Below, piece after piece: positions 48,622 through 64,000 of a stretch of 64,000 nucleotides of DNA. Each line of letters starts with the position of its first letter. Position 1 is the first letter of the stretch. Below the pieces are notes generated by a model. That model worked only from the letters and a program-made list of their open reading frames with translations. It did not search any database and was not told where the DNA came from. A program made the translations under genes and the position numbers. Source of the DNA: Pacificibacter marinus (GTDB taxonomy: Bacteria; Pseudomonadota; Alphaproteobacteria; Rhodobacterales; Rhodobacteraceae); contig NZ_JAHKPK010000025.1 in the NCBI RefSeq assembly GCF_018860665.1, positions 100,279-164,278 of the forward strand, given 5' to 3'.

Positions 48622-50286
48622 TCAGTTTGCCTGACGACGCAGGAACGCTGGGATTTCAATCTTCTCTTGTTCAGGATTCGGATCCTGATCTTCGTCGTAA
48701 GACTGATGCACTTGTGGCTGGCGGCTCGGTTGAGCCGCTTGGCGCGCAACAGGCGCAGCGTGACGAGGCTGTTCAGCTTGCGCCTCTTCCGCGCCATTTC
48801 CAGTCATACGACCAATCAAAGAATTGATACCAAAACGGCCCTGCTTGGGTTGCTCAGGCGCGCCAAAACTGCGCGATTGCGGACCTGGATGCTGGACTTG
48901 AGGTTGCTGCGGTTGACGGTGCATTGGCGCTTCAGGGCGCTTAGACACAGCCGCTTGCAAACGTGACATCGCCTCAGGAGAAGGCACACCCGCAGATGGC
49001 GCGCGTGGCGCAACATAGGCGTCCGCTTCCGGTTCATGCATAGAGGGCTGATAGGTTGGCTCCGGACGCGGCTGATAGGCAGGCGCAGGCATTTCATCGG
49101 CGGTATCAAACAGCTCTTCGGCTTGCTCTTCTGCCGCAGCAGCATGGGCGTCAAAGACATCCAAAGTGGGTTGTGCAGGCGCTTGCTGCTGGACTGGTGC
49201 CTCTTGCGGCTCTGGCTGTGCAACAGGTGCAGGTGCAGCTTCGACTGCAGCAATAGCAGCCGCAGGAGCGAGAGGCTCAGCCAGACGACGACGTGGCGTT
49301 GGCATATCAGCTGAGCTTGGTGCCGCATCGATACCTGTGGCCACAACAGACACACGCATTTTGCCCCCCAAGGACGGATCCATAGTAGAGCCGACGATGA
49401 TGTTGGCTTCTGGATCGACTTCTTCGCGGATGCGGTTGGCGGCTTCGTCGAGTTCGAACAAGGTCAAATCGTCGCCGCCGGTGATGTTGATCAGAACGCC
49501 TTTGGCGCCCATCAGTGACATCTCGTCGAGCAATGGGTTTGCGATGGCTTTTTCTGCCGCTTGGATCGCGCGATCTTCGCCCTCTGCCTCGCCTGTGCCC
49601 ATCATAGCTTTGCCCATCTCGTCCATCACAGCGCGAACATCTGCAAAGTCGAGGTTGATCAGACCGGGGCGAACCATCAAATCAGTCACACCCTTCACGC
49701 CTTGGTACAACACGTCATCGGCCATAGAAAAGGCATCGGTGAAGGTCGTCTTCTCATTGGCAAGACGGAACAGGTTTTGGTTCGGAATGATGATCAATGT
49801 GTCGACCATCTTTTGCAACGCTTCAACACCTTCATCGGCTTGGCGCATCCGTTTGTTGCCTTCAAACTGGAAAGGCTTGGTTACGACACCAACGGTCAAA
49901 ACGCCCAACTCACGCGCGGCTTGCGCGATGATTGGGGCTGCACCCGTGCCCGTGCCACCGCCCATACCAGCCGTAATGAAACACATGTGAGCGCCAGCAA
50001 GGTGATCAACAATGGCTTCGATGCTCTCTTCAGCTGCGGCGGCACCAACAGTGGGGCGCGCGCCAGCACCGAGACCTTCGGTCACTTTGATGCCGATTTG
50101 AATTTTTGCTGCGGCGTTGGAATGCTGCAAAGCCTGTGCGTCGGTGTTCGCAACAACGAATTCAACGCCTTCAAGCTCTTTTTCAATCATGTTGTTGACC
50201 GCATTACCACCGGCGCCGCCGACGCCAAACACTGTAATACGAGGTTTCAACTCTTCCCGCTCGGGCATTGTGAGGTTCAAAGCCAT
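48622..50286 (-). CDS. ftsZ: Cell division GTPase FtsZ
   Basis: 554 residues. The GTPase domain (about 15-320) has [12 protein letters not shown], the tubulin signature [10 protein letters not shown] and [12 protein letters not shown]7 loop [10 protein letters not shown] is intact. The long Gln/Pro/Ala-rich linker (about 325-540) and the C-terminal peptide [10 protein letters not shown] are typical of Rhodobacterales FtsZ. It polymerises into the division ring. A 469-bp region with several hairpins separates it from ftsA, so it probably has its own promoter. Confidence 0.97.
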
Positions 50287-50755: not shown

Positions 50756-52087
50756 TTACCAATTTTCTTTGAACCAACGCACTGCGCGCTTCAAAGAACG
50801 CGCAGGATAGCGCTCAGCCGGAATTTCAAAGTCCCACCATTCATCTTGCGGGTTCGCAGCAAAAAGGCATAGCCCAACAGCAGAGGCAAAAGCTGCACCC
50901 GTTGCTGCCTGCGGCAGACCTTGAACGCGCAAAGGCCGACCAATGCGCACCTGTTGCCCCAGAATTTTCGGCGCCAACCCATCAAGACCAGGGATCTGAC
51001 TTGCCCCCCCTGTCAAAACGATCTGTTGGCTTGGCAGGTGTTCAAACCCAGCCGCATCCAAACAATCGCGCACGCCTTCGAGAATTTCTTCAACACGCGG
51101 ACGGATGATGCCGATAAGTTCAGCACGTGACACAGTACGACGATCGCGCTCCCAATCGCCGCTGTCGCCGCCAATCTCGATCATTTCGCGATCATCCATT
51201 CCAGTGGCGACAACACCACCATAAAAGGTCTTGATCCGCTCCGCCGTCGCGTTTGGAATTTGCAGACCCATCGCAATGTCTGAAGTCACTTGATCCCCGC
51301 CCATGCGCACGGAATCGGCATAGATCATGTGTTTTTTCATAAAGATCGACACATCCGAAGCACCGCCACCAAGATCGACACAGGCCGCGCCCAACTCTTG
51401 TTCATCCTCGACCAAAGCCGACACGCCCGCCATATAAGCAGAGGACGCAATGCCCGCCACTTCAAGATCGCAACGCTTAATACAATACAAAAGGTTCTGG
51501 ATCGTCGCCGTATCGACAGTCAACATGTGCATATCAACCGCCAAAGTGGACCCAATCTGACCACGTGGATCAGCCATGCCCGAGCGGTGGTCCAGCGCAA
51601 AATTTACCGGTTGCGCGTGGATGACTTCGCGATGCGCACCGTAATCTGGCACATCGCTAGAGGCCAGAACCCGCGCCACATCTTGTTCCGACACGGACTC
51701 ACCTTCGAGATCAACCTGGCCTGCCAAGCCATAAGAGCGCGGCGCGCCCCCAGAGAAACAGGCGATCACGTGATCCACACGGGTCTGCGCCATTTTCTGT
51801 GCGGCTTGCACGGCAGTCCGAATGGCGCGTTCTGTTTCACCCATGGCGTCAATTTCGCCAAATTTCACACCGCGAGACCGCGTTGTCGCAGCGCCAATCA
51901 CCCGAAACCCTGACTGACCCGCAAGCGTGCCAACACCGTCAGCCCCGACGAATTTGTCACCATCAAAGCGCAAAACAAGACAGGCAATCTTTGATGTGCC
52001 CACGTCCAGAATAGCGATGACACCGCGTTGGATAGCCGCTTTGCGCATATTGCGCATGGCGCGTTGAGCAGAGTAAAGATCGGTCAT
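50756..52087 (-). CDS. ftsA: Cell division actin-like protein FtsA
   Basis: 443 residues from ATG 52087 behind GGAG; the frame reaches upstream into ftsQ. The ATPase phosphate-1 motif is LDVGTSKIACLV, the phosphate-2 motif VDLGGGASDVSIF, and the adenosine motif LTGGASQIPGLD. The SHS2/1C domain lies at about 105-190. The C-terminal RAVRWFKENW is the amphipathic membrane-binding helix. It tethers FtsZ to the membrane. It follows ftsQ by 16 bp. Confidence 0.97.
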   Translation of the reverse strand: MTDLYSAQRAMRNMRKAAIQRGVIAILDVGTSKIACLVLRFDGDKFVGADGVGTLAGQSGFRVIGAATTRSRGVKFGEIDAMGETERAIRTAVQAAQKMAQTRVDHVIACFSGGAPRSYGLAGQVDLEGESVSEQDVARVLASSDVPDYGAHREVIHAQPVNFALDHRSGMADPRGQIGSTLAVDMHMLTVDTATIQNLLYCIKRCDLEVAGIASSAYMAGVSALVEDEQELGAACVDLGGGASDVSIFMKKHMIYADSVRMGGDQVTSDIAMGLQIPNATAERIKTFYGGVVATGMDDREMIEIGGDSGDWERDRRTVSRAELIGIIRPRVEEILEGVRDCLDAAGFEHLPSQQIVLTGGASQIPGLDGLAPKILGQQVRIGRPLRVQGLPQAATGAAFASAVGLCLFAANPQDEWWDFEIPAERYPARSLKRAVRWFKENW

Positions 52088-52103
52088 AGTAAAAACACTC
52101 CGG

Positions 52104-53069
52104 TTATAGCCCCTGAAGACGGCGGAATTCATCACGTGCGGCGTCTGAAATCCGCAATGTGTGCCGGTCCGGGTTACGCATATCGACGGCGCGCACATCG
52201 CGCGCCAATAGATCTTGGGCTTGATCCAAGGCAATCACTTGGGCCAGCGCCGCAAAAGGATTGGTCTCGGGCAGCATAATGACTTGGTCGTTGTCCAAAA
52301 TGATATCCCAACGACGTTCGCCGACTCGCACGATACCACGCATCCTGTCCATCAAAGGCTCGGCTGCTTTAAGCAAACCTAAAGCTTGGGCCACTTCGCG
52401 CTCAGCCCCCTCGCCCGCGATCAGCGGCAAATCAGGGCGATCCAAGCGAGAAGCCAAAGCGGAAACCCGATGCCCATCAACATCAAGCAGTTCAAGCCCT
52501 TGCGGACCACGCCACACGACGGAGGGCACACGTTCGGTGATATCCACCTGCAAAATCCCGCCAGCGCGCACACGCAAACCGACACTCGCAACGGCATCCA
52601 GACCTTCGATCTGATCAAGCATTCCATTCAGGTCGAGATCAAATGAGGAAATCGGAAAATCGACAGGGGCCACTTCGCGAATGTCGGCAGACAAATCGGG
52701 AGAAGCGCCATCGATCGCCATCATCTTGACCATAAACTCTGGGCGGTTTTGCAGCTCGGCTTTCATCACATCATACTGATCAGCGATGATTTGGCGGTTG
52801 TCCTCATTGGAGACCCAAACCCCAACGACCGCCACAAGAACCGCAAGGGGGGCCAATTTGCGCATCGCAAAGCGAAACGACGGGGTCAACCACAAGCGGC
52901 TCATCTTATAGGCGGCACGGGAGGGAGCTGGATCACGTGGGCGCGGCGCAGCACTTTCGCTTACGCCTGTGCGCGCTCGGATCACCCGCGCCACAGCCTC
53001 GGATACGCGGACGGACCCTCCGGCAGACGCAGGTTTGGCAAAGGTCAATGGATCTACAGGACGCGTCAT
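52104..53069 (-). CDS. ftsQ: Cell division protein FtsQ
   Basis: 321 residues from ATG 53069 behind CGGAGG, which overlaps the stop of the preceding ddl-relic frame by the ATGA junction. A cytoplasmic basic N-terminus (1-65) precedes one membrane span (about 72-88), a POTRA domain (about 105-175, MAIDGASPDLSADIREVA) and the FtsQ domain (about 180-300, ITERVPSVVWRG). It belongs to the FtsQLB divisome subcomplex. The upstream position normally held by ddl is degraded. Confidence 0.95.
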   Translation of the reverse strand: MTRPVDPLTFAKPASAGGSVRVSEAVARVIRARTGVSESAAPRPRDPAPSRAAYKMSRLWLTPSFRFAMRKLAPLAVLVAVVGVWVSNEDNRQIIADQYDVMKAELQNRPEFMVKMMAIDGASPDLSADIREVAPVDFPISSFDLDLNGMLDQIEGLDAVASVGLRVRAGGILQVDITERVPSVVWRGPQGLELLDVDGHRVSALASRLDRPDLPLIAGEGAEREVAQALGLLKAAEPLMDRMRGIVRVGERRWDIILDNDQVIMLPETNPFAALAQVIALDQAQDLLARDVRAVDMRNPDRHTLRISDAARDEFRRLQGL

Positions 53070-53320
53070 TTGACCTCCGACATTAAAGACTGAGGCTGCG
53101 ATAAGGCAAAAACTGACAAAAACTGGTGCGATAAAACATAAACTGTATCGGCGACACAAATCCGCTGACGCAGCACTGCGCCTGAGTCTGAACCGACATC
53201 TTTTCTCACTATGCCCCTAAGCGCGGCAGCGCCAATACGCCACGACGACAACGACGCCTCGCGTTCAAACGAAGCCACGTCAATCGATACCGCCACTTTT
53301 CGGGGTGTCCTGCTCGACAT
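53066..53320 (-). pseudogene. ddl: Relic of D-alanine--D-alanine ligase gene ddl
   Basis: An 84-codon frame from ATG 53320 (TTG at 53389 extends it by 23 codons), ending in an ATGA overlap with ftsQ, which is the ancestral ddl slot. Residues 1-20 (SSRTPRKVAV...FEREASLSS) match the Ddl N-terminus (VAVLMGG-x-S-x-EREVSLSSG), followed by AAALRG and KDVGSDSGAVL at the right places. The glycine-rich loop is destroyed. After about codon 55 nothing matches, and the whole ATP-grasp catalytic domain (about 250 residues) is missing. The 3' part contains two CAAAAACTG copies (53107-53115, 53117-53125) and TGCGATAA twice (53097, 53127). It cannot encode an active ligase. Confidence 0.6.
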
Positions 53321-53454
53321 ACCCACAAGTGCCTCATACTCCGGAACCTTTTTGGTCCCTGTGCTTTTTTTGAACCTTTTGCGGTTCAATTTATACTTAT
53401 CTCATAAGGGCTAAGCCCAAATCACCTCATTTGCAAAGAGGTCTTGCGAATCGT

Positions 53455-54405
53455 TTAACCAGTGGAGCACCCGCTGACAACAGGTTTGCCTAAAAATTCT
53501 CCGATGCGCTTAATTTCCCATCTTAGCGTAAGGCCTGAGTTTTGAAACACTTTTCTTCGCACCTCTTCGCCAAGGCTTTCCAAATCATGCGCAGTGGCAT
53601 CACCTGTATTGATCATAAAGTTAGAATGCATCGGGCTCATTTGTGCGCCACCGATGGAAAAACCACGTAGTCCCGCATCATCGATGACCTTCCATGCCTT
53701 CAAATCATGCACATCATCCGCCTGCCCTGTTGAGGAAAATCCAGCGGGGTTGCGAAAGGTCGATCCCGCAGAACGATCTTTGGTGGGCTGCGTCTCGTCG
53801 CGCTTTTTGAGCTGGGCCTGCATCCGCGCCTCAAGCTCGGTTGCATCGCCATTGCCAGCTTTAAATGTCGCTTCGATCAAAACCCAACCCTCTGGCAAGG
53901 TTGAGCCACGATATTCGAAATTCAAATCATCGGCGGTGAGCGTGACGATCTCGCCCCTGCGCGTGACCGCTTTCGCCGAGACAAAATGATCCGCCACATA
54001 AGATCCGTAACACCCCGCATTCATGCGTACAGCGCCACCGATAGCCCCTGGAATAGTACGCAAAAACGTCAAATCCAGCCCCTGTGCAGCCGCCTTGCGC
54101 GCCACATGGGCATCCAAGGCAGCCACGCCAGCCGTGACCAGATTGCCGTCAAAAGAAATGTCGTTAAACCCTCGTCCCATGCGGATCACCACAGCTCGGA
54201 TGCCCCCATCGCGCACGATCAAGTTCGACCCGACCCCCATGGGAAAGACATCAATAGTTTGATCCAGATTCTTAAGGAACGTTTGCAGATCATCGACATC
54301 CGCAGGCTGAAACAAAGCATCCGCTGGTCCGCCCACACGCAACCATGTCAAATCAGCCAAAGGACGGTTTTCAGTCAAAGTGCCACGCACATCAGGGAGA
54401 TTCAT
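53455..54405 (-). CDS. murB: UDP-N-acetylenolpyruvoylglucosamine reductase MurB
   Basis: 316 residues. The FAD-binding part (about 15-200) has [39 protein letters not shown] and [19 protein letters not shown]; the C-terminal domain has [19 protein letters not shown] and the catalytic region MHSNFMIN. MurB reduces the enolpyruvyl group to form UDP-MurNAc with NADPH. It is a type II-like short MurB, as in other alphaproteobacteria. Downstream the ddl slot is degraded. Confidence 0.96.
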
Positions 54406-54453
54406 AAAAACGCCTTATCGTTAAGGCCCGATGAAGTCAGGCCCTTGCCAGTA

Positions 54454-54705
54454 TTAGATTTGGGTAAGCTTTGCCTTGATCCAGCGCGCCAAATACCGCA
54501 ATGGCCACCGCAAAACAGACGCCCCCGCAGCAAGAACGACCAGCCCAACCCATGGGCCGTTTTCATAGGTGACAAAGCCCAAGATGGGAACCCCAACGGC
54601 GATCAAAGCATAAGCTGCACGCCAATGGGATGTGCGAGACGGCAGCATGGCGATGACATTCGCCACGATCGCCCAAAGGCAAGCAAGAATAAGGGATAGC
54701 GTCAT
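54454..54705 (-). CDS. DUF2484 small membrane protein, first copy
   Basis: 83 residues from ATG 54705 behind AGAGG; a GTG two codons upstream is possible. LILACLWAIVANVIAMLPS, a SHWRAAY turn, IAVGVPILGFVTYENGPWVGLVVLAAGASVLRW and a basic end match DUF2484, which is encoded between murC and murB in most Rhodobacterales. Three membrane segments. The position suggests a cell-wall or division role, but none is proven. Confidence 0.85.
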   Translation of the reverse strand: MTLSLILACLWAIVANVIAMLPSRTSHWRAAYALIAVGVPILGFVTYENGPWVGLVVLAAGASVLRWPLRYLARWIKAKLTQI

Positions 54706-54717
54706 AAGCACCTCTGT

Positions 54718-54963
54718 TCAGGTCCGAGTGATCCAACGTTTCAAGCCCAAGACAAGAGCTATCAACGGCTTGCGAAACATAGACACAGCAGCAAAAATAC
54801 AAACAACAACCGGCAGCGCGCCATAATCGCGCCCCAGCCATATCAAAAGTATGGGCAAGACGAGCAAAAGTCCTGCCCCAGGCAGAATCTGATACCTAAT
54901 TGGTAACGGTGAAAGCCCCATGGTGGCAAGCGCCCAAATGCACATCGCGGTGATTGAGGTCAA
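54718..54963 (-). CDS. DUF2484 small membrane protein, second diverged copy
   Basis: 81 residues from a TTG at 54963; ATG at 54945 is the alternative. Three membrane segments with the same spacing as the neighbouring DUF2484 copy (CIWALATMGLSPLPIRYQ, LLLVLPILLIWLGRDYGALPVVV, FRKPLIAL...RWI). Similarity is low but order, length and topology agree, so it is a diverged tandem duplicate. It lies 12 bp upstream of the first copy and 54 bp after murC. Confidence 0.65.
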   Translation of the reverse strand: MTSITAMCIWALATMGLSPLPIRYQILPGAGLLLVLPILLIWLGRDYGALPVVVCIFAAVSMFRKPLIALVLGLKRWITRT

Positions 54964-55017
54964 TGGATTGCCCCAAAGGCGTCACAATGGCGCTCAACAA
55001 ACCACATGAACATCACC

Positions 55018-56421
55018 CTAGTTCTTGGCAAGGCGTTCAGCCAGACCGTAAGCCCAAGTCGAAATCGTACCCGCGCCAAGGCAAACAACCATATCGCCGT
55101 CGCGGGCTTGTTCGCGCACCAGACGTTCCAAGTCTTCCTCAGAGGTCACAGCGCGAGCATGACGGTGCCCGTGACGGATCAGCCCTGCGACCAAATCGTC
55201 ACGGCCAGCGCCCTCAATCGGGTCTTCACCGGCCGAGAAAATATCCGCGATACCAACCACATCAGCCTCGTTGAAACAGGTGCAGAAATCCTCGAACAGC
55301 GAATGCAACCGACTAAAGCGGTGCGGTTGATGCACTGCAATCACGCGACCTTCAGTGGCTTGACGCGCGGCTTTGAGAACGGCTGCAATTTCCACAGGAT
55401 GGTGACCATAGTCATCAATAATGGTCACGCCTCCCACTTCGCCCACACGGGTAAAGCGGCGATTCACGCCGCCAAAGTTTGCCAAGGCTTCGCGGATTTC
55501 ATCTGGCTTCATCCCCAAATGACGCGCCACAGCCACAGCCGCCAAAGCGTTGGACACGTTGTGATCGCCTGGCATCGGTAGACTACAATCCTTGATCACG
55601 ATGTCATCTTGTTGCAGCGCTATATCGAAATGCGCCACGCCTTTTTTATAGGTCAGGTGGATCGCACGCACATCGGCTTGGGCGTTAAAGCCAAAGGTCA
55701 CAACGCGGCGGTCGGTGATTTTGCCCACCAGTGTTTGCACTTCGGGGTGATCGGTACAGCACACGGCCAGACCGTAAAACGGAATGTTGGACACGAAATC
55801 CAAAAAGCCTTGGCGCAGCGTATCGAAATCGCCCCAATGTTCCATGTGCTCAGGATCGATATTGGTGACAATCGCGATGGTTGCAGGCAGACGGTTGAAC
55901 GTGCCGTCACTCTCGTCCGCCTCGACAACCATCCAATCACTGGCCCCAACACGCGCATTAGACCCATAGGCATGAATGATGCCGCCGTTGATCACCGTGG
56001 GGTCGATGCCGCCTTGATCCAAAAGCGCTGCTACCATCGTTGTTGTGGTGGTTTTGCCATGGGTGCCAGCGACGGCGATATTGGATTTCAGCCGCATCAA
56101 TTCGGCCAGCATTTCAGCGCGGCGCACAACAGGCAAGCCCGTCAGACGCGCTGTGTCCAATTCAGGATTGCCCGGTTTGATCGCGGATGAAATCACCACG
56201 ACAGCCGCGCCCTCTAGGTTCTCGGCCTTTTGACCGACAAAGACTTTCGCCCCCAGCTCTTCCAAGCGTTTGGTAATCTTCGAACCCTTCAGATCAGAAC
56301 CCTGCACCGTATACCCATGATCCAAAAGAACCTCTGCGATCCCCGACATGCCGATACCGCCGATGCCAACAAAGTGAATGGGCCCCATTTCCGTGGGCAG
56401 CTTGGTTGCGGATGCGTTCAT
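55018..56421 (-). CDS. murC: UDP-N-acetylmuramate--L-alanine ligase MurC
   Basis: 467 residues from ATG 56421 behind AGAGAG. The N-terminal Rossmann domain has [16 protein letters not shown], the ATP loop is [13 protein letters not shown], and ESDGTF and [10 protein letters not shown] mark the central and C-terminal domains. It adds L-Ala to UDP-MurNAc, the first residue of the stem peptide. It follows murG by 52 bp in the dcw order. Confidence 0.97.
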
Positions 56422-56473
56422 GTCGTATCTCTCTTCTATCTCGGTGCGGCCTTGTTGGGTGTGGCCGACAAAA

Positions 56474-57565
56474 TTACTGGGCAAGCCGTGTTACAAGCTC
56501 TGCCAATTCATATGCCGCCTCTGGTTTGCCGACTGACAAAGCCGCCTGGCTCATGGTGGCTGCGCCTTCGGCATTGTCGAAAACCAAAGCGATTTGCGCG
56601 GCCAAACTTGCAGGCGTCAATTGGCTTTCAGGAATCATAATCGCAGCCCCAGCTTCGACCAGCCCACGCGCATTGGCAGTCTGATGGTCGCCCGTGGCGG
56701 CGGCAAACGGGATCAAAATAGAGGGGCGCCCAATCACGGAAATATCCGCAACAGTCGAAGCCCCAGAGCGCGCGATCACAAGCTGCGCTTCGGCCATACG
56801 ATTGGGCACATCATCAAAAAAGGGTCTGATATCCGCAGACATACCGTGCTGCATATAATGCTGCTCGACCCGTTCCACGTCTTCGGGGCGCGCTTGTTGG
56901 CTGACCCGCAGATGTTTGCGAATATGTTCGGGCAGGTTCGTGATTGCTTCTGGCACCACGTCTGACGTGATCCGCGCGCCTTGAGAGCCTCCCAGAACCA
57001 AGATTTCCATCGGGTAATCTCCGGGCGGAATATATGACGCGCCAGCACGTTCTAAAACAGCACCACGCACAGGGTTTCCCACATGCACGCCTTGCGACCC
57101 TTCGGGCAAATCCGTTGGCCAAACGCCGCAAGCAACCTGTGCAACCTTGGGGGCGAACACAGTGTTCACACGTCCCAAAACGCCGTTTTGTTCGTGGATC
57201 ATCCGCGGCAATTTCATCAAAGTCGCCGCCGCCACAGACGGAATAGCCGGATAGCCACCAAAGCCAATCACCACATTGGGGCGGTCTTTGCGAAACTTGA
57301 CCATAGCGCCCAGAACGCCGCCTGCGATTTTGAACGGCACGCCAAGCTTGGCCAAGATCCCGCCGCGCGCGAAGGTGCCTGAGGTCAGAACCTCGATCTC
57401 GACAGCCTCGGGAAAGCCGCCAGCATAGCGCGCGCCGCGCGGATCGGTCGTCAGCTTCACACGCCAGCCTTGGGCCAGCAGAACTTCGGCCAAAGATTGC
57501 GCCGGAAACATATGCCCGCCTGTGCCGCCAGCAGCGATCACGACAAGTGGAGAATAGCCAGACAT
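56474..57565 (-). CDS. murG: Lipid II synthase MurG
   Basis: 363 residues from ATG 57565 behind AAAGGGA. The glycine loop [15 protein letters not shown], the second loop [21 protein letters not shown] and the RSGAST...[10 protein letters not shown] region are the GT28 hallmarks. MurG transfers GlcNAc to lipid I on the inner membrane face. Its position between ftsW and murC is conserved. Confidence 0.97.
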
Positions 57566-57589
57566 AGAGTTCCCTTTCAAAGCGTCACC

Positions 57590-58756
57590 TTAGCGCCCAC
57601 GGCGGATCAACAAATCGCCGATCTCACCTTGGGGGCGCGTGCGGGTAAACGCCAAAAGCGCGCCAAGGGCAATACCAGATGCGATCACGGATGACCCTCC
57701 ATAGGACACAAACGGCAAGGTCATGCCCTTGGCAGGCAAAAGCCGCACCGCCACACCCATATTGATAAAGGCTTGTACCCCAAAGGCGCAGGCCAACCCT
57801 GTGCCTGCAAGACGGATAAAAGGATCGCGTTCACGCAGCAAACGCCACAAAGACCGCACGGTGATCGTGGCGTATAGGGCGATAATGACAATCACCAAAA
57901 TCGTCCCGTATTCTTCAGCGGCCACAGCGATGATGAAATCAGTATGCGCATCAGGCAAAGACCATTTCACAGTCCCCTCGCCCACGCCAACGCCGAAAAA
58001 ACCACCCTCGCGGATCGCGTTTGTGGCATAACCGATTTGGGTGGTCGGATCGATATCAGGATTTAAAAACCCATCAATACGCCGCGCAAAGTGCTCTGAC
58101 CCATTGTAAGCAAAAGTGCCGCCGAACACGACCAATGCGGCCAAACCAATCAGTAGAAACAAAGGCGCGCCGCCAACGAAATACATGACACCCCAGCTGA
58201 ACAGCACCAAACAGGCCTGCCCGAAATCAGGCTGCAAGGCCAGCATCATCACTATGACTACGGTCAGCATAAAGGAATACAAGCGCCCGGGTGGGCCACC
58301 AATCTCTAACGCTGCGGCGATCAACCAAGCCGAGGTGATCACAAACGCAGGTTTCAAAAATTCGGACGGCTGCACAGAGGCAAACCCGAACGAATACCAA
58401 CGCATAGCGCCTTTGCCAAAATCAGTGCCGAAAAACGGCAACAAAGCCAAGGCGATGAACGCCCCGACAAAGCCCACAACCGCGAAACGCCGCACCTTGT
58501 GCGGGTCCATCATGGTCACGAATATCATGGTGCTCAGCGCAATAAATCCAAAGAAAACTTGGCGTTGCACAAAATAAAAATAAGGAAGGTTGTTTTTCTC
58601 AGCCAAAGGCGGAGAGGCTGCCAAACCCAGTAAAATGCCGATACCAAACAACATAAAGACGCAAGATAGCGTCCATTTGTCGATCGTGCGCCACCAACGT
58701 GGAAGAACCGGCTCCCCTTCCCGTACGGGAATGGAACCATACACCATTTCTGTCAT
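57590..58756 (-). CDS. ftsW: Peptidoglycan glycosyltransferase FtsW
   Basis: 388 residues, ten membrane segments, SEDS family. FGKGAMRWYSFGFASVQPSEFLKPAFV holds the essential motif region, and the catalytic aspartate-type loop HTDFIIAVAAEEYG and PFVSYGGSS are intact. It polymerises septal glycan chains from lipid II with FtsI. The start at 58756 has GAGGC upstream. The next gene upstream, on the opposite strand, is a lactate dehydrogenase instead of murD directly. Confidence 0.96.
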   Translation of the reverse strand: MTEMVYGSIPVREGEPVLPRWWRTIDKWTLSCVFMLFGIGILLGLAASPPLAEKNNLPYFYFVQRQVFFGFIALSTMIFVTMMDPHKVRRFAVVGFVGAFIALALLPFFGTDFGKGAMRWYSFGFASVQPSEFLKPAFVITSAWLIAAALEIGGPPGRLYSFMLTVVIVMMLALQPDFGQACLVLFSWGVMYFVGGAPLFLLIGLAALVVFGGTFAYNGSEHFARRIDGFLNPDIDPTTQIGYATNAIREGGFFGVGVGEGTVKWSLPDAHTDFIIAVAAEEYGTILVIVIIALYATITVRSLWRLLRERDPFIRLAGTGLACAFGVQAFINMGVAVRLLPAKGMTLPFVSYGGSSVIASGIALGALLAFTRTRPQGEIGDLLIRRGR

Positions 58757-59010
58757 GGGATGCCTATGCCTCTACTGCCTTTGCCCGCTTTTGCGGATCT
58801 ATAGGACCAACCTAGCGGGCTTTGGCGTGTTTTGCTACAATAGATTGCATCTTGCCTTTTTTGCGGGCGATGTTCAGCCGATAGCCCCGTTACAGTCAAG
58901 ATCAGCGCCCTGCATCCCCTTGATCCGTGTCATTGCTCATAGGGCACGACATAATAAAGATTGGTGCGACACATCACATCCATAGGGACAATCGGTATGA
59001 GGCAATCACT

Positions 59011-59943
59011 ATGAAAATAGGCATCATCGGCGCAGGCATGGTCGGCTCGGCCGCAGGCTATGCCATCGCATTGAAAGGCACGGCCAGCGATATTATTTTT
59101 GTTGACCAAAACCCTGATCTTGCCCGCGCTCAGGCCCAAGACATCGCCCATGCCGTGCCGTTTTCATCCGCCACGCGGGTCTCGGCTGGCGATCACGCAG
59201 CCCTGCATGGTGCCGATGTGATCATCTTGGCCGCAGGCGTCGGGCAGAAACCCGGCGAAAGCCGACTTGATCTGTTGTCGCGCAACGCCGATGTGTTTCG
59301 ATCTATATTGTCGGACCTCAGCCCTATCGCGCCGCAGACCATTTTGCTGATCGCATCCAATCCCGTCGACATCATGACCCAGATCGCCACGCGCTTGAGC
59401 GGCCTTCCCGCCTCGCGAGTGATCGGGTCAGGCACCATTTTAGACAGCGCACGGTTTCGCCACCTGCTTGGCCTGCACCTTGGGATCGCGGCCCGTTCTG
59501 TGCATTCATATGTGCTGGGGGAACATGGCGACAGCGAAGTTCTGGCGTGGAGCTCGGCCCGCGTTGGCGCCTTGCCCCTTGCTGATTTTGCCGCCCAGCG
59601 TGGCGTGCCTTTGACTGATGATATCAAACGCCAGATCGACGACGGCGTGCGCGGTGCGGCTGAGACCATCATCAAAGGCAAAGGCGCCACATGGTATGGG
59701 ATCGGCGCAGGACTGGAACGCATCGTGCGCGCGATTGCCACCGACGAACAAGCGGTACTGTCCGTATCTTGCGTCACGCCGCAGATCGAAGGGGTTGATG
59801 ATATCGCCCTATCGATCCCGCGTATCGTCGGCGCGCGCGGCGCAGACACGGAAGTGTTCCCCGCGTTGAACAGCGCCGAACACAGCGCACTTGCGGCGTC
59901 AGCGCGCAAGCTCAAAGACACCTACGCAGCGCTGAAACTCTAA
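59011..59943 (+). CDS. ldh: L-lactate dehydrogenase (LDH/MDH superfamily)
   Basis: 310 residues from ATG 59011. The nucleotide loop is IGIIGAGMVGSAAG with acidic D32 for NAD. The substrate-specificity residue is Q79 in AGVGQKPGESRL (Q in lactate, R in malate dehydrogenases), the flanking R85 is kept, and the catalytic histidine is H172 in LGEHGDSEV. That favours L-lactate. It lies on the plus strand inside the minus-strand murein cluster, between ftsW and murD, converging with murD at 4 bp. The likely role is lactate/pyruvate conversion. Confidence 0.88.
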   Translation: MKIGIIGAGMVGSAAGYAIALKGTASDIIFVDQNPDLARAQAQDIAHAVPFSSATRVSAGDHAALHGADVIILAAGVGQKPGESRLDLLSRNADVFRSILSDLSPIAPQTILLIASNPVDIMTQIATRLSGLPASRVIGSGTILDSARFRHLLGLHLGIAARSVHSYVLGEHGDSEVLAWSSARVGALPLADFAAQRGVPLTDDIKRQIDDGVRGAAETIIKGKGATWYGIGAGLERIVRAIATDEQAVLSVSCVTPQIEGVDDIALSIPRIVGARGADTEVFPALNSAEHSALAASARKLKDTYAALKL

Positions 59944-59947
59944 GCCT

Positions 59948-61345
59948 TTACATCAGCGCATCAACCTGCGCGATGAAATCGTCACCGCGTTTCTCGAAAT
60001 TTGGATATTGATCAAAAGACGCCGCCGCAGGCGCCAGCAAAACCGTGTCCCCCACTTGTGCCTCAGCTGCTGCGCGGGCCACGGCAACCTCCATCGTGTC
60101 GCACAGCTCGTAAGGTGTGTCGCCCAACTGCAGCGCGAACTCTTTGGCGGAAAACCCGATCAAATACGCCTTAGCCACGGCGCCCAAATGCGCGGACAGC
60201 TCAGCGATACCACCATCTTTGCCCATTCCGCCTGCAATCCAGCGGATCGATTTGAACGCTTGCAAGGCCTTGGCCGCGGCATCGACATTTGTGGCTTTGG
60301 AATCATTCACAAAACGCACACCATCCTTTTCGCCCACCAGTTGCGATCGATGCGGCAGACCTTTGAAACTGTTCAAGGCTTCCGCGATCAATTTCGGCGA
60401 AGTGCCAATCGCGCGGCAAGCGGCATAGGCCGCGCAGGCGTTTTGATGGTTGTGCGCGCCGGGGAGCCCCGCGATCTCGCGCAGATCAACTGATCCCGCC
60501 TGACGGCCTTTGCGCCACTCGCTCAAGAACCCTTTGTGCGCGTAGATATTCCAGCCCGCACCTTTGAGCTTTTGGCCGCTGGAAATACGGATCAAACGCC
60601 CGTCAGCAAAGCTATCGACCAGTTGATTGGCCATATATTGCCCCTCGACCTCATCCACGCCGATGATGGCGCGGTCTGGTCCGCCTTCTGCAAACAAGCG
60701 CCGCTTGGCGGCGAAATAGCCGCCCATACCGCCGTGACGATCCAAATGATCGGGGGAAAGGTTTGTAAAGACAGCAATATCAGGCGTCATCGATCGCGCC
60801 AAATCTGTCTGGTAGCTTGAGAGCTCAAGCACGATCACTTCGCCGTCTTCCGGCTCGTCCAGATCCAGCACGCCGCGACCGATATTGCCCGCCAATTGCG
60901 CGGGCGTGCCAGTGGCAGTGAGAATATGATGGATCAGCGCCGATGTGGTGGATTTGCCGTTCGATCCAGTCACCGCGATGATGCGCGGCGGGGTGTCGTG
61001 GTCCATCCAATCGCCAGATCCAAACGAGCGGAAAAACACGCCGATGTCATTGTCCACTGGCACGCCCGCCGCCCATGCTGCTTGGGTGATTTTATTGGGC
61101 TCTGGATAGAGATGCGGAATTCCGGGCGACACAATGAGGGCGGCGATGCCATCAAAGGCCTCGTGCTTGCTCAAATCGCGCAGGGTATAGCCCTCGGCCT
61201 CAGCAGCCTCGCGCGCCTCGACACTGTCGTCCCAACAAATGGGTTCCGCCCCGCCCGCGACCAAAGCGCGTGCCGTGGCCATGCCAGACCGCCCAAGCCC
61301 CAAAACAGCTACATTCTGTCCGTCATATCCATAGACTGGAATCAT
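59948..61345 (-). CDS. murD: UDP-N-acetylmuramoyl-L-alanine--D-glutamate ligase MurD
   Basis: 465 residues from ATG 61345; a GTG at 61369 is less suited. The N-terminal domain has [17 protein letters not shown], the ATP loop is [24 protein letters not shown] and [11 protein letters not shown] are central, and FVNDSKATN and AGGMGKDGG lie in the C-terminal domain. It adds D-Glu to the stem peptide. mraY lies 244 bp upstream, after a terminator, and murD then needs its own promoter. Confidence 0.97.
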
Positions 61346-61532
61346 TGTATCACCCGCAAATTCTTTCACCGCATCATCGACGGTATGGGCGCAAATGGAA
61401 AGAGCACATCATTTGATTTCACTGCGCATCGTTAGGGCCAAGCGCGACCTTCAATTTGCTGCGAACAAATCATCGACAAGATCAACCTTGGGAGACGCAT
61501 CATTGCGTTTTTTAAAAAGCCTTTAAAAGAAA

Positions 61533-61557
61533 AGCCCTCACCCAATGGGTGAAGGCT
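61533..61557 (-). terminator. Terminator after mraY
   Basis: 11-bp stem with one mismatch (61533-61543 with 61547-61557), 3-nt loop, followed on the minus strand by TTTTCTTTT, 33 nt after the mraY stop. It splits the murein cluster into two units. Confidence 0.8.
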
Positions 61558-61589
61558 CTCATAACTTTGCGACAAAGAAAAGCGACGGC

Positions 61590-62672
61590 TTATCTAAGTT
61601 TCAGCGTCGCCAATCCGATCAAAGCCAGCACCAAAGAGATGATCCAAAAGCGGATCACGATGGTGGATTCGGCCCAGCCTTTTTTCTCGTAGTGGTGGTG
61701 GATCGGCGCCATCAGGAACACGCGTTTTCCGGTGCGTTTGAAGTACAGGACTTGGATGATCACAGACAGGGCTTCGACCACGAACAAGCCGCCGACGATG
61801 GCCAAAACGATCTCGTGTTTGGTGGCCACAGCGATGGCCCCCAAAGCGCCGCCAAGGGCCAAAGACCCTGTATCCCCCATGAACACAGCGGCGGGCGGGG
61901 CGTTGTACCACAAAAACCCAAGGCCGCCGCCGATCAGTGCTGAGGTAAAGATCAAAATCTCACCGGTGCCAGGCACATAATGCAGGCCAAGGTATTCGGT
62001 GTAATCCACACGGCCCACGACATAGGCGATCACGCCCAAAGTGCCAGCAGCGATCATCACCGGCATAATGGCCAGACCGTCCAAACCATCGGTAAGGTTC
62101 ACCGCATTGGCAGAGCCCACGATCACGATCACAGCGAAAGGCACAAAGGCAAAGGACATATTGATCAACACATCTTTAAACACAGGCAAAGCCAACTGGT
62201 TGGTCAAGGCTTCGGGGTGCAACCAAGACGCCCAGATGCCAGCAATGACTGCGATCACAAGACCAAGGATCAGGCGAATTTTGGACGACACCCCTTTGGT
62301 ATTGGCCTTAGAGACCTTGGCGAAATCATCTGCAAAGCCAATCGCGCCATAGGCAAAGGTCACGAACAGCACCAGCCAAACATAGCCGTTATCAAGTCGC
62401 GCCCAAAGCAAGGTAGAGGTCAGCAAAGCGGTCAAAATCAACAGCCCGCCCATGGTCGGCGTCCCCGCTTTGGCGAAATGGCTTTCAGGGCCATCATCGC
62501 GAATGGGCTGACCTTTGCCTTGGCGGCGACGCAGCATATCGATCAAAGGGCGGCCAAAGATGAAGCCGAAAATCAAAGCGGTGAAAAACGCCCCGCCTGC
62601 CCGCATGGTGATATAGCGAAACAAGTTAAAGAAATCACCGCCATCTGACAGTTCGGCCAACCAATATAACAT
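61590..62672 (-). CDS. mraY: Phospho-N-acetylmuramoyl-pentapeptide transferase MraY
   Basis: 360 residues, ten membrane segments, same length as E. coli MraY. The DD-type motif [21 protein letters not shown] and the histidine-rich loop [13 protein letters not shown], all essential for catalysis, are intact. It moves the UDP-MurNAc-peptide to undecaprenyl phosphate, giving lipid I. Its normal substrate is a pentapeptide with D-Ala-D-Ala, which MurF would add. The murF gene normally found just upstream is reduced to a relic here. Confidence 0.97.
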
Positions 62673-62701
62673 CTACTTTTTATCCCTAAAGTTTGGCCTG
62701 C

Positions 62702-62836
62702 CTAGATCAGCTTGGCCGCGTAGTATTTGATGAGCGGATGCCCCAAGTTTCGGATGCCGTCAACCACTGGCTGACATTTGTTCTTTTTGACTCTTCGATC
62801 AAATAATGTCCCCGAAAAAGCCCAAAACGAGGTCAC
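62702..62836 (-). pseudogene. murF: Likely relic of murF (tripeptide:D-Ala-D-Ala ligase gene)
   Basis: A 44-codon frame starting at a GTG that overlaps the murE stop by GTGA and ending 30 bp before mraY, exactly the slot of murF. The first five residues (VTSFW) may be the murF start. The second half RVKKNKCQPVVDGIRNLGHP resembles the MurF C-terminus (VKxSKxSxVVDAIRKLGHP pattern). All catalytic sequence (about 420 residues) between them is absent. It is too short to act. A chance frame cannot be excluded, but position, both junctions and C-terminal match agree. Confidence 0.45.
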
Positions 62837-64000
62837 AAAGCGCCATCCAAAGCTGCCACGCTGATCGAGGCTTGCTCAACATCATCAAATGGATAGACAA
62901 TATCGCCAACGATCTGCCCGCTTTCATGGCCTTTGCCACAAACGATCAAAGCATCACCTGATTGCAGAGCATCAACTCCGCGCAAAATCGCCTCTGAGCG
63001 GTCCGCCACCTCAAGCGCCTCAGGCGCGCCCTGCATCACAGCGGCGCGAATAACGGCTGGATCTTCGGAACGCGGATTGTCATCGGTGACGATCACCAAA
63101 TCAGCGTTTTCAGCCGCCGCCTGCCCCATCAACGGACGCTTGCCAGCATCACGATCCCCGCCAGCACCGATCACAGCAATCACCCGTCCCATCACATGGG
63201 GACGCAAGGCTTTGATCGCCGTGGAAACCGCATCAGGCGTATGCGCGTAATCAACAAATACCGTCCCGCCATTATCACGCGTCGCCGCGTGCTGCATGCG
63301 TCCGTGCACGCCGCTTAGTTCGGGCAGGCAAGAAAACACTTCCTCAGGATCGCCCCCACAGGCCATCACAAGCCCCGCGGCGGCCATTACATTTTCCGCT
63401 TGGAACCCACCGATCAGATCAAGCCGTACTTGGTAAATATTGCCAACAAAATCAACGCGCAAATCTTGACCTGTTGCATCGAAACGCTGGCCTAATATGC
63501 GCAAATCCGCCGCATCAGAACGCCCGATCCGCATGACATCGATCCCGCGCTCGGCACAAAGCGCCTCGACCTCCATGCCGCGTGCATCATCGATATTGAC
63601 CACAGCGACACCGTCTTCGGACAATACGCGCGTGAACAGCCCTGCTTTGGCAGCAAAATAGGCTTCGAATGTCTCATGGTAATCCAAATGGTCTTGGGTG
63701 AAATTGGTGAACCCAGCCGCCATAAGGCGCACGCCATCAAGGCGACGCTGTGACAATCCGTGGCTGGAAGCTTCCATCGCGCCATGAGTTATGCCCTCGA
63801 AAGCCGCATCATAAAGCATCTTGTGCAGGGTAATCGGTTCTGGCGTGGTGTTCGGGCTTGGGGTTTGCCAATCACCTTCGACACCCGTGGTGCCGATGTT
63901 GATTGCAGGGTGCCCCATCAACTGCCAAATCTGTCGGGTGAAATTCGTCACCGATGTTTTGCCATTCGTGCCCGTGACAGCTACCATCGCATTGGGTTGA
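62833..64000 (-). CDS. murE: UDP-MurNAc-L-Ala-D-Glu--2,6-diaminopimelate ligase MurE, N-terminus outside window
   Basis: 388 residues are readable from the window edge; about the first 100 are outside. The ATP loop is VTGTNGKTSVTNF, then TTPEP, MEASSHGL, NFTQDHLDYH and HGRMQ. The specificity motif DNPRSEDP is the meso-diaminopimelate signature, so the third stem residue should be meso-DAP. The C-terminal GKGHESGQI is complete. The stop overlaps a murF-relic frame. Confidence 0.96.
   Translation of the reverse strand, partial: QPNAMVAVTGTNGKTSVTNFTRQIWQLMGHPAINIGTTGVEGDWQTPSPNTTPEPITLHKMLYDAAFEGITHGAMEASSHGLSQRRLDGVRLMAAGFTNFTQDHLDYHETFEAYFAAKAGLFTRVLSEDGVAVVNIDDARGMEVEALCAERGIDVMRIGRSDAADLRILGQRFDATGQDLRVDFVGNIYQVRLDLIGGFQAENVMAAAGLVMACGGDPEEVFSCLPELSGVHGRMQHAATRDNGGTVFVDYAHTPDAVSTAIKALRPHVMGRVIAVIGAGGDRDAGKRPLMGQAAAENADLVIVTDDNPRSEDPAVIRAAVMQGAPEALEVADRSEAILRGVDALQSGDALIVCGKGHESGQIVGDIVYPFDDVEQASISVAALDGAL

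Follow-up and report, generated by a model that had tools for sequence, protein, structure and literature searches.

We analyzed a stretch of 64,000 nucleotides (the window) from the draft genome of Pacificibacter marinus (genome G000, contig C33, positions 100279-164278), which carries a division and cell wall (dcw) gene cluster on its minus strand. The gene order is murE, a first gap, mraY, murD, ftsW, murG, murC, two small open reading frames (ORFs), murB, a second gap, ftsQ, ftsA and ftsZ, with an L-lactate dehydrogenase gene on the plus strand between murD and ftsW. The two gaps hold relics of murF and ddl, the genes for addition and synthesis of the D-Ala-D-Ala dipeptide. Sequence comparisons point to non-orthologous displacement of this arm of the pathway: very likely a three-gene module on another contig, ddl2-ABH-murF2, took over from the murF and ddl of the dcw cluster, and a MurF2 that appears to be membrane-bound stands where the enzyme is usually soluble.

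The first gap corresponds to the native murF place between murE and mraY, as found in all six congeners inspected (G005, G007, G011, G014, G016 and G018), and the second to that of ddl between murB and ftsQ, as in all four congeners whose stretch extended there. Compared with murF of five congeners, the first gap gave local DNA scores of 41-61, against maxima of 29-33 in 100 base shuffles. The second gap keeps approximately the first 110-150 bp of ddl and scored 82-105 with four congeners, the maxima of 100 shuffles being 34-39. A first-pass annotation had called murF and ddl relics and the rest of the cluster complete, and the scores of both relics, above those of all shuffles, bear this out. 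Whole-genome profile searches of P. marinus returned no MurF and no Ddl above the curated family cut-offs.

Closely similar relics are present at both places in a sister species (G010). Their presence in both genomes makes an assembly error unlikely and dates the loss to before the split of the two species. The first-pass annotation had itself allowed for an assembly artefact or for sister species that all lack the pair through a different ancestral order. The P. marinus assembly is a draft (3.89 Mb, 65 contigs, 95% complete), but G010 has the same relics and the same module, and ddl relics also occur in Pelagimonas, Actibacterium and G134, which leaves an artefact or contamination with a negligible probability. 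A genus-wide lack does not agree with the six inspected congeners, which keep murF in place, four of them together with ddl. It was also rejected because MurF2 occurs in only 2 of the 20 genus genomes; it was not found in the other 18, each of which gave a MurF match of another kind (50-80 bits), confirmed in place in six.

The whole-genome search placed the best MurF and Ddl matches of P. marinus on contig C32 (29687-30739 and 27256-28344, respectively), within 3.5 kb. The ddl-murF pair that the first-pass annotation expected elsewhere in the genome was thus located, together with a gene for an alpha/beta hydrolase (ABH) that overlaps murF2; ddl2 is divergent from ABH-murF2. G010 has the same 8.2-kb module block with 91.5% identity to C32, and contamination was rejected because of this second occurrence. 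Genes for IS21-like transposases, named by eye, lie ca. 3 kb from the module in G010 (L033:6268-8602). No member of the genus with both the module and the canonical pair was found. We infer that the replacement arrived before murF and ddl were lost.

The GC content of C32 (52.6-52.9%) is close to that of the window (53.9%). In a quick MurF2 tree the two Pacificibacter sequences grouped with those of G134, G287 and Pelagimonas in a 13-row clade with a Shimodaira-Hasegawa-like approximate likelihood ratio (SH-aLRT) support of 100. Hyphomonas, Croceicoccus and two metagenome-assembled genomes (MAGs) of gammaproteobacteria, the taxonomy of which can err, belong to this clade as well. Such mixing of lineages is the pattern expected of transfer and agrees with an acquired pair, one of the options named in the first-pass annotation; the module was probably gained horizontally. 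Plasmid carriage was rejected because neither MurF2 nor the module matches PLSDB, and a defence system because none of the three module proteins matches PADLOC.

To describe the spread of the module, a species-level genome collection was scanned with a five-row MurF2 alignment and the best 80 of at least 578 confirmed stretches were kept. These 80 loci include records of Pelagimonas, Actibacterium, Pseudooceanicola, Croceicoccus, Kordiimonas, gammaproteobacteria, Bacteroidales, Obscuribacterales, Chamaesiphon, Clostridia and Chloroflexi, many of them MAGs. Either the complete trio or ABH-murF2 with Ddl encoded at another site was seen repeatedly, in Alpha- and Gammaproteobacteria, Bacteroidales, Melainabacteria, Clostridia, Chloroflexi and further groups. 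In 74 of the 80 loci the ABH gene is the same-strand neighbor of murF2; the median gap is 2 bp, and the two genes overlap in 34. Ddl2 is present in 57 loci and all three genes in 55; the 23 loci without Ddl2 include the cyanobacterial ones (L087, L088 and L092). In 18 of the 80 loci, dcw genes occur within the flank of the module. At three of the loci (L057, L062, L065) the module lies between ftsQ and murB/murC, which is the ddl position of the dcw cluster, and in L060 it takes this position likewise, but without a recognized murB. In Melainabacteria the module follows murC-murB in three of four loci.

In the genomes sampled, canonical MurF is mostly lacking, truncated or eroded at the active site where MurF2 occurs. 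MurF2 was found in 5 of 394 genomes of a family sample and in 25 of 385 genomes of a class sample. Two of the latter (G530 and G740) are 947-aa fusion frames that match canonical MurF at 1e-165 or better; with these excluded, 23 bearers were counted, of which one, G488, is 63% complete and has a stop in its MurF2 match. With the three best candidates per genome scored in the MurF2 search and the four best in the canonical MurF search, a canonical match at the threshold of 1e-70 or better was obtained in 336 of the 385 genomes. It was present in four of the 23 MurF2-bearers (G572, G654, G675, G838) and in 332 of the 362 others (Fisher p = 1.7e-15, uncorrected for relatedness). This anticorrelation, and the position of the module inside the dcw cluster in other lineages, argue against a peptidoglycan that does without D-Ala-D-Ala (tripeptide stems, L,D-crosslinks) while the module serves another polymer. 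Although the module and the dcw cluster are on different contigs in P. marinus, we consider that explanation highly improbable.

A second set comprised 53 MurF2-bearing proteobacterial genomes, mostly alphaproteobacterial and picked for MurF2, after removal of three evident duplicates. A full-length canonical MurF match was absent in 43 and present in 10. Read by eye, five of these ten proteins (L163, L166, L168, L169, L170) are eroded at residues kept in three controls. In seven further genomes the MurF frame is shortened or motif-dead and lies either in the native slot or as a tail fused to MurE. All seven are without the DDxYNxN motif and six without the P-loop, which L154 keeps, whereas the first part can still be aligned. 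The Pfam N-terminal Mur ligase domain was detected in L156; L153 and L155 have it as a second stretch, and L062 and L157 gave no match to it. Canonical MurF in MurF2-bearers covers a spectrum: some copies are intact, others eroded or truncated, and in some genomes none was detected. Small frames of 151-152 aa with MurF-like ends occupy the murF slot in three loci (L056:9474-9932, L060:19336-19794, L065:20532-20987); those of L060 and L065 look alike by eye, and the profile matches are weak (3.4, 5.8 and -1.4 bits for L056, L060 and L065). They may represent an advanced state of murF decay in which the remnant was retained as a small protein.

For Ddl, exactly one match (E<=1e-25) was found in 50 of the 53 genomes and a second in three, and the single Ddl adjoins MurF2 in 42 of the 50. 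Among 19 further MurF2-bearing genomes, mostly of other phyla, 15 have one Ddl match and four (G092, G095, G105, G106) have two. No canonical MurF was present among the matches listed, down to ca. 75 bits, for six MurF2-bearing genomes of Melainabacteria, cyanobacteria and one deltaproteobacterial record (G088, G089, G095, G096, G097 and G099, corresponding to loci L072, L073, L087, L088, L089 and L092).

Several observations weigh against displacement by the module. Thirty of the 362 MurF2-free genomes are also without a canonical MurF match at 1e-70. Four of the ten full-length canonical MurFs in the second set have intact motifs by eye (L161, L164, L165, L167), and in L162 they are slightly changed but nearly intact. 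Six of the 80 loci are without ABH; in seven, Ddl2 is missing from the neighborhood although each flank is longer than 4 kb; in eight of the 50 genomes the single Ddl lies away from MurF2. The six Bacteroidales that were read keep a MurF-Alr fusion; the Asn of its DDSYN motif is missing in five and kept in one, and in three further MurFs read beside the fusions it is missing in two and kept in one. Finally, the P. marinus proteins score below the family cut-offs, with 208.6 versus 288.6 bits for MurF2 (TIGR01143) and 230.4 versus 245.65 for Ddl2 (TIGR01205).

The relic pattern of the window is repeated in part by other MurF2-bearing Rhodobacterales. One of them, the isolate Pelagimonas phthalicica DSM 26923, has the module, and a search for the canonical pair found none. 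In all three genomes whose stretch covered the site, a 5' relic of ddl precedes ftsQ: Pelagimonas (scores of 74-84 versus shuffle maxima of 35-40), G134 (125-137 versus 40-50) and Actibacterium (65-85 versus 38-43), each compared with 60 shuffles. The murF relics in these bacteria are uneven and less clear than those of ddl: in Pelagimonas the score exceeded the shuffle maximum for four of five references, and none was detected in G287 and G127 by the same shuffle comparison. The ddl remnant is an open frame that reaches the ftsQ frame in P. marinus and G010 (84 codons each), Pelagimonas (59) and Actibacterium (51); in P. marinus the stop codon of the remnant and the likely ftsQ ATG overlap. 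The pattern of the ddl start, which locates the stub in these four genomes, gives no frame in G134. We infer from these frames that the stub may be retained for translational coupling to ftsQ, the alternative being that such short frames are open by chance. More generally, the leftover 5' end of ddl and 3' end of murF may persist because coupling of translation to ftsQ and mraY, respectively, is kept.

The MurF2 protein carries the Mur ligase middle and C domains with a P-loop and a DDxYNxN-like motif. In a profile search of solved structures, MurF entries came first (ca. 1e-45 to 1e-37), before MurC, MurD and MurE. An AlphaFold2 model of the Pelagimonas homologue, built with a 52-row alignment (mean predicted local distance difference test score 94), has helices only up to residue 167 and no strand before residue 170, and for the part after the helices the nine best fold matches in the PDB are all MurF. 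Canonical MurF (TIGR01143), which these domains resemble both in sequence and in fold, has the UDP-MurNAc-binding N-terminal domain PF01225 where MurF2 has a helical membrane domain. PF01225 was absent in the three MurF2 proteins scanned (G000, L044, L072) and present in both canonical controls. By hydropathy, 50 of 52 MurF2 rows have two to five membrane-like segments ahead of the P-loop, the other two being without the P-loop landmark pattern; 12 rows also show a segment after the P-loop. The membrane helices are predicted to stand in for the UDP-MurNAc-binding domain. Twelve positions within residues 1-172 reach a conservation of 85% or more across the 52 rows. Of these, seven have polar or basic residues (Q29, Y33 and T99 in 52/52, K93 and R101 in 51/52, Q30 in 48/52 and R104 in 46/52); the others are M1, L96, P147, A160 and I172. 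The polar and basic residues could form a putative binding site rather than belong to a mere anchor.

Without a uridine-binding domain, a lipid-linked tripeptide (lipid I/II) is about as likely a substrate of MurF2 as a UDP-linked one, and we lean toward the former. We tentatively propose that stem completion occurs at the membrane stage and that the module crossed phyla. MraY would transfer the tripeptide precursor, and MurF2 together with ABH, fed by Ddl2, would then complete the stem by attaching the dipeptide to lipid I or II. On several occasions the module would have rendered the textbook MurF and Ddl superfluous, and what is left of them would be pseudoenzymes, stubs or no trace at all. 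Two points count against lipid-linked action: it is argued from the absence of a domain and from analogy, and a table of mraY identities had nothing unusual for P. marinus and G010. A change specific to mraY was rejected, these two genomes forming a deep branch for all nine genes compared. A comparably plausible possibility is that MurF2 is an ordinary MurF that still acts on UDP-MurNAc-tripeptide and is tethered by helices that merely place it beside MraY. The MurF-like middle and C domains would fit this, as would the presence of unremarkable murE, mraY and murG, but the uridine-binding domain is absent and a mere anchor need not retain conserved polar and basic residues.

The analogy for action at the membrane stage is MurT/GatD, which like the module combines a Mur ligase homologue with a hydrolase-type partner and, according to PMC6085368, amidates lipid I and lipid II but no UDP-linked precursor. 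The two systems differ in that MurT/GatD amidates D-Glu with glutamine-derived ammonia and GatD is a glutaminase, whereas the module partner is not a class I glutaminase but an Abhydrolase_1 protein with a Ser-Asp-His triad. This triad (Ser86, Asp197, His225) is intact in all 73 rows scoring above 140 bits. To our knowledge, MurT has no membrane domain of the MurF2 kind. The coupling of the ABH gene to murF2 suggests a joint task or an editing role, and ABH would be a serine hydrolase that acts as partner or editing enzyme.

Ddl2 shares the N and C domains (PF01820, PF07478) and a Lys-Tyr pair with canonical Ddl (TIGR01205) but is longer and has PGS in place of PGxT. Module-type Ddls of Bacteroidales and Clostridia exceed the TIGR01205 cut-off. 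Ddl2 would supply the D-Ala dipeptide that ends the stem, or something closely related to it. The first-pass annotation had also considered a changed stem terminus, with a possible effect on drug sensitivity. That the module makes such a terminus (D-Ala-D-X or a depsipeptide), having perhaps been selected initially for escape from an antibiotic, appears unlikely to us. In its favor, PGS occurs in all 45 aligned Ddl2 sequences (PGxT in none) and PGMT in four of four congener Ddls, at a position which we take to be near the site of the second substrate, the second D-Ala, and the module includes a hydrolase, loosely like VanX in van clusters. On the other hand, the Lys-Tyr pair, read as the omega-loop pair that is typical of D-Ala-D-Ala ligases, is invariant in the 45 rows, and Ddl2 scored far under the cut-offs of the D-Ala-D-Lac (NF000206; 130.7 versus 550) and D-Ala-D-Ser (111.7 versus 520) ligase models. 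The module resembles VanHAX and the glycopeptide-producer clusters that carry a second murF in its grouping of ligase, murF and hydrolase genes, but its Ddl2 is far below the van ligase cut-offs. Neither VanH nor VanX was recognized by eye among the longer C32 ORFs; no profile search was made for them.

MurF and Ddl are commonly regarded as universal and essential antibacterial targets. A module displacing both in several lineages, with an enzyme that is missing the usual UDP-precursor-binding domain, would mean that bacteria may differ in when and where a core step of wall synthesis takes place, and makes it testable whether D-Ala-D-Ala can be added after MraY. Lineages with MurF2 only are natural knock-outs of murF and ddl, and the module explains genomes that annotation by family cut-offs would label incomplete. 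In the open-access literature, judged by title and abstract (subscription papers and preprints lie outside this scope), no description of a ddl2-ABH-murF2 module was found, and the earlier remark that paired decay of murF and ddl is undescribed is consistent with the same literature.

Table 1. Features of the dcw cluster in the window and of the module on contig C32 (locus L016 coordinates).
Feature	Position	Strand	Remarks
murE	62833..63987	-	listed frame in window; gene continues past window end; 498-aa open frame in genome
murF relic	62673..62832 (gap 1)	-	slot between murE and mraY; murF 3'-end homology ~62739-62801
mraY	61590..62672	-	intact
murD	59948..61369	-	intact
ftsW	57590..58756	-	intact
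murG	56474..57580	-	intact
murC	55018..56484	-	intact
murB	53455..54405	-	intact
ddl slot	53160..53454 (gap 2)	-	between murB and listed ftsQ frame; relic and upstream spacer
ddl stub	53066..53320	-	84-codon open frame; Ddl-like beginning (MSSRTPRKVAV...); ends at likely ftsQ start
ftsQ	52104..53159	-	listed frame, intact; likely start 53069
ftsA	50756..52234	-	listed frame, intact
ftsZ	48622..50286	-	intact
ddl2	L016 12190-13359	-	389 aa
ABH	L016 13470-14219	+	alpha/beta hydrolase; 249 aa
murF2	L016 14216-15793	+	525 aa

The L-lactate dehydrogenase gene that is opposed to the operon (58927-59943 of the window; TIGR01771, 325.6 bits) has homologues at the same place in all five congeners read. 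In Actibacterium atlanticum (L172, G063:C1:8001-27000) there is no mraY between murE and murD, and an ORF resembling tetratricopeptide repeat proteins is found there. Its sole MraY-family match at 1e-20, a protein of 350 aa, is encoded elsewhere (L175:7805-8857) and scored 120.6 versus a cut-off of 192, possibly reflecting a further displaced step or a gap in the draft assembly.

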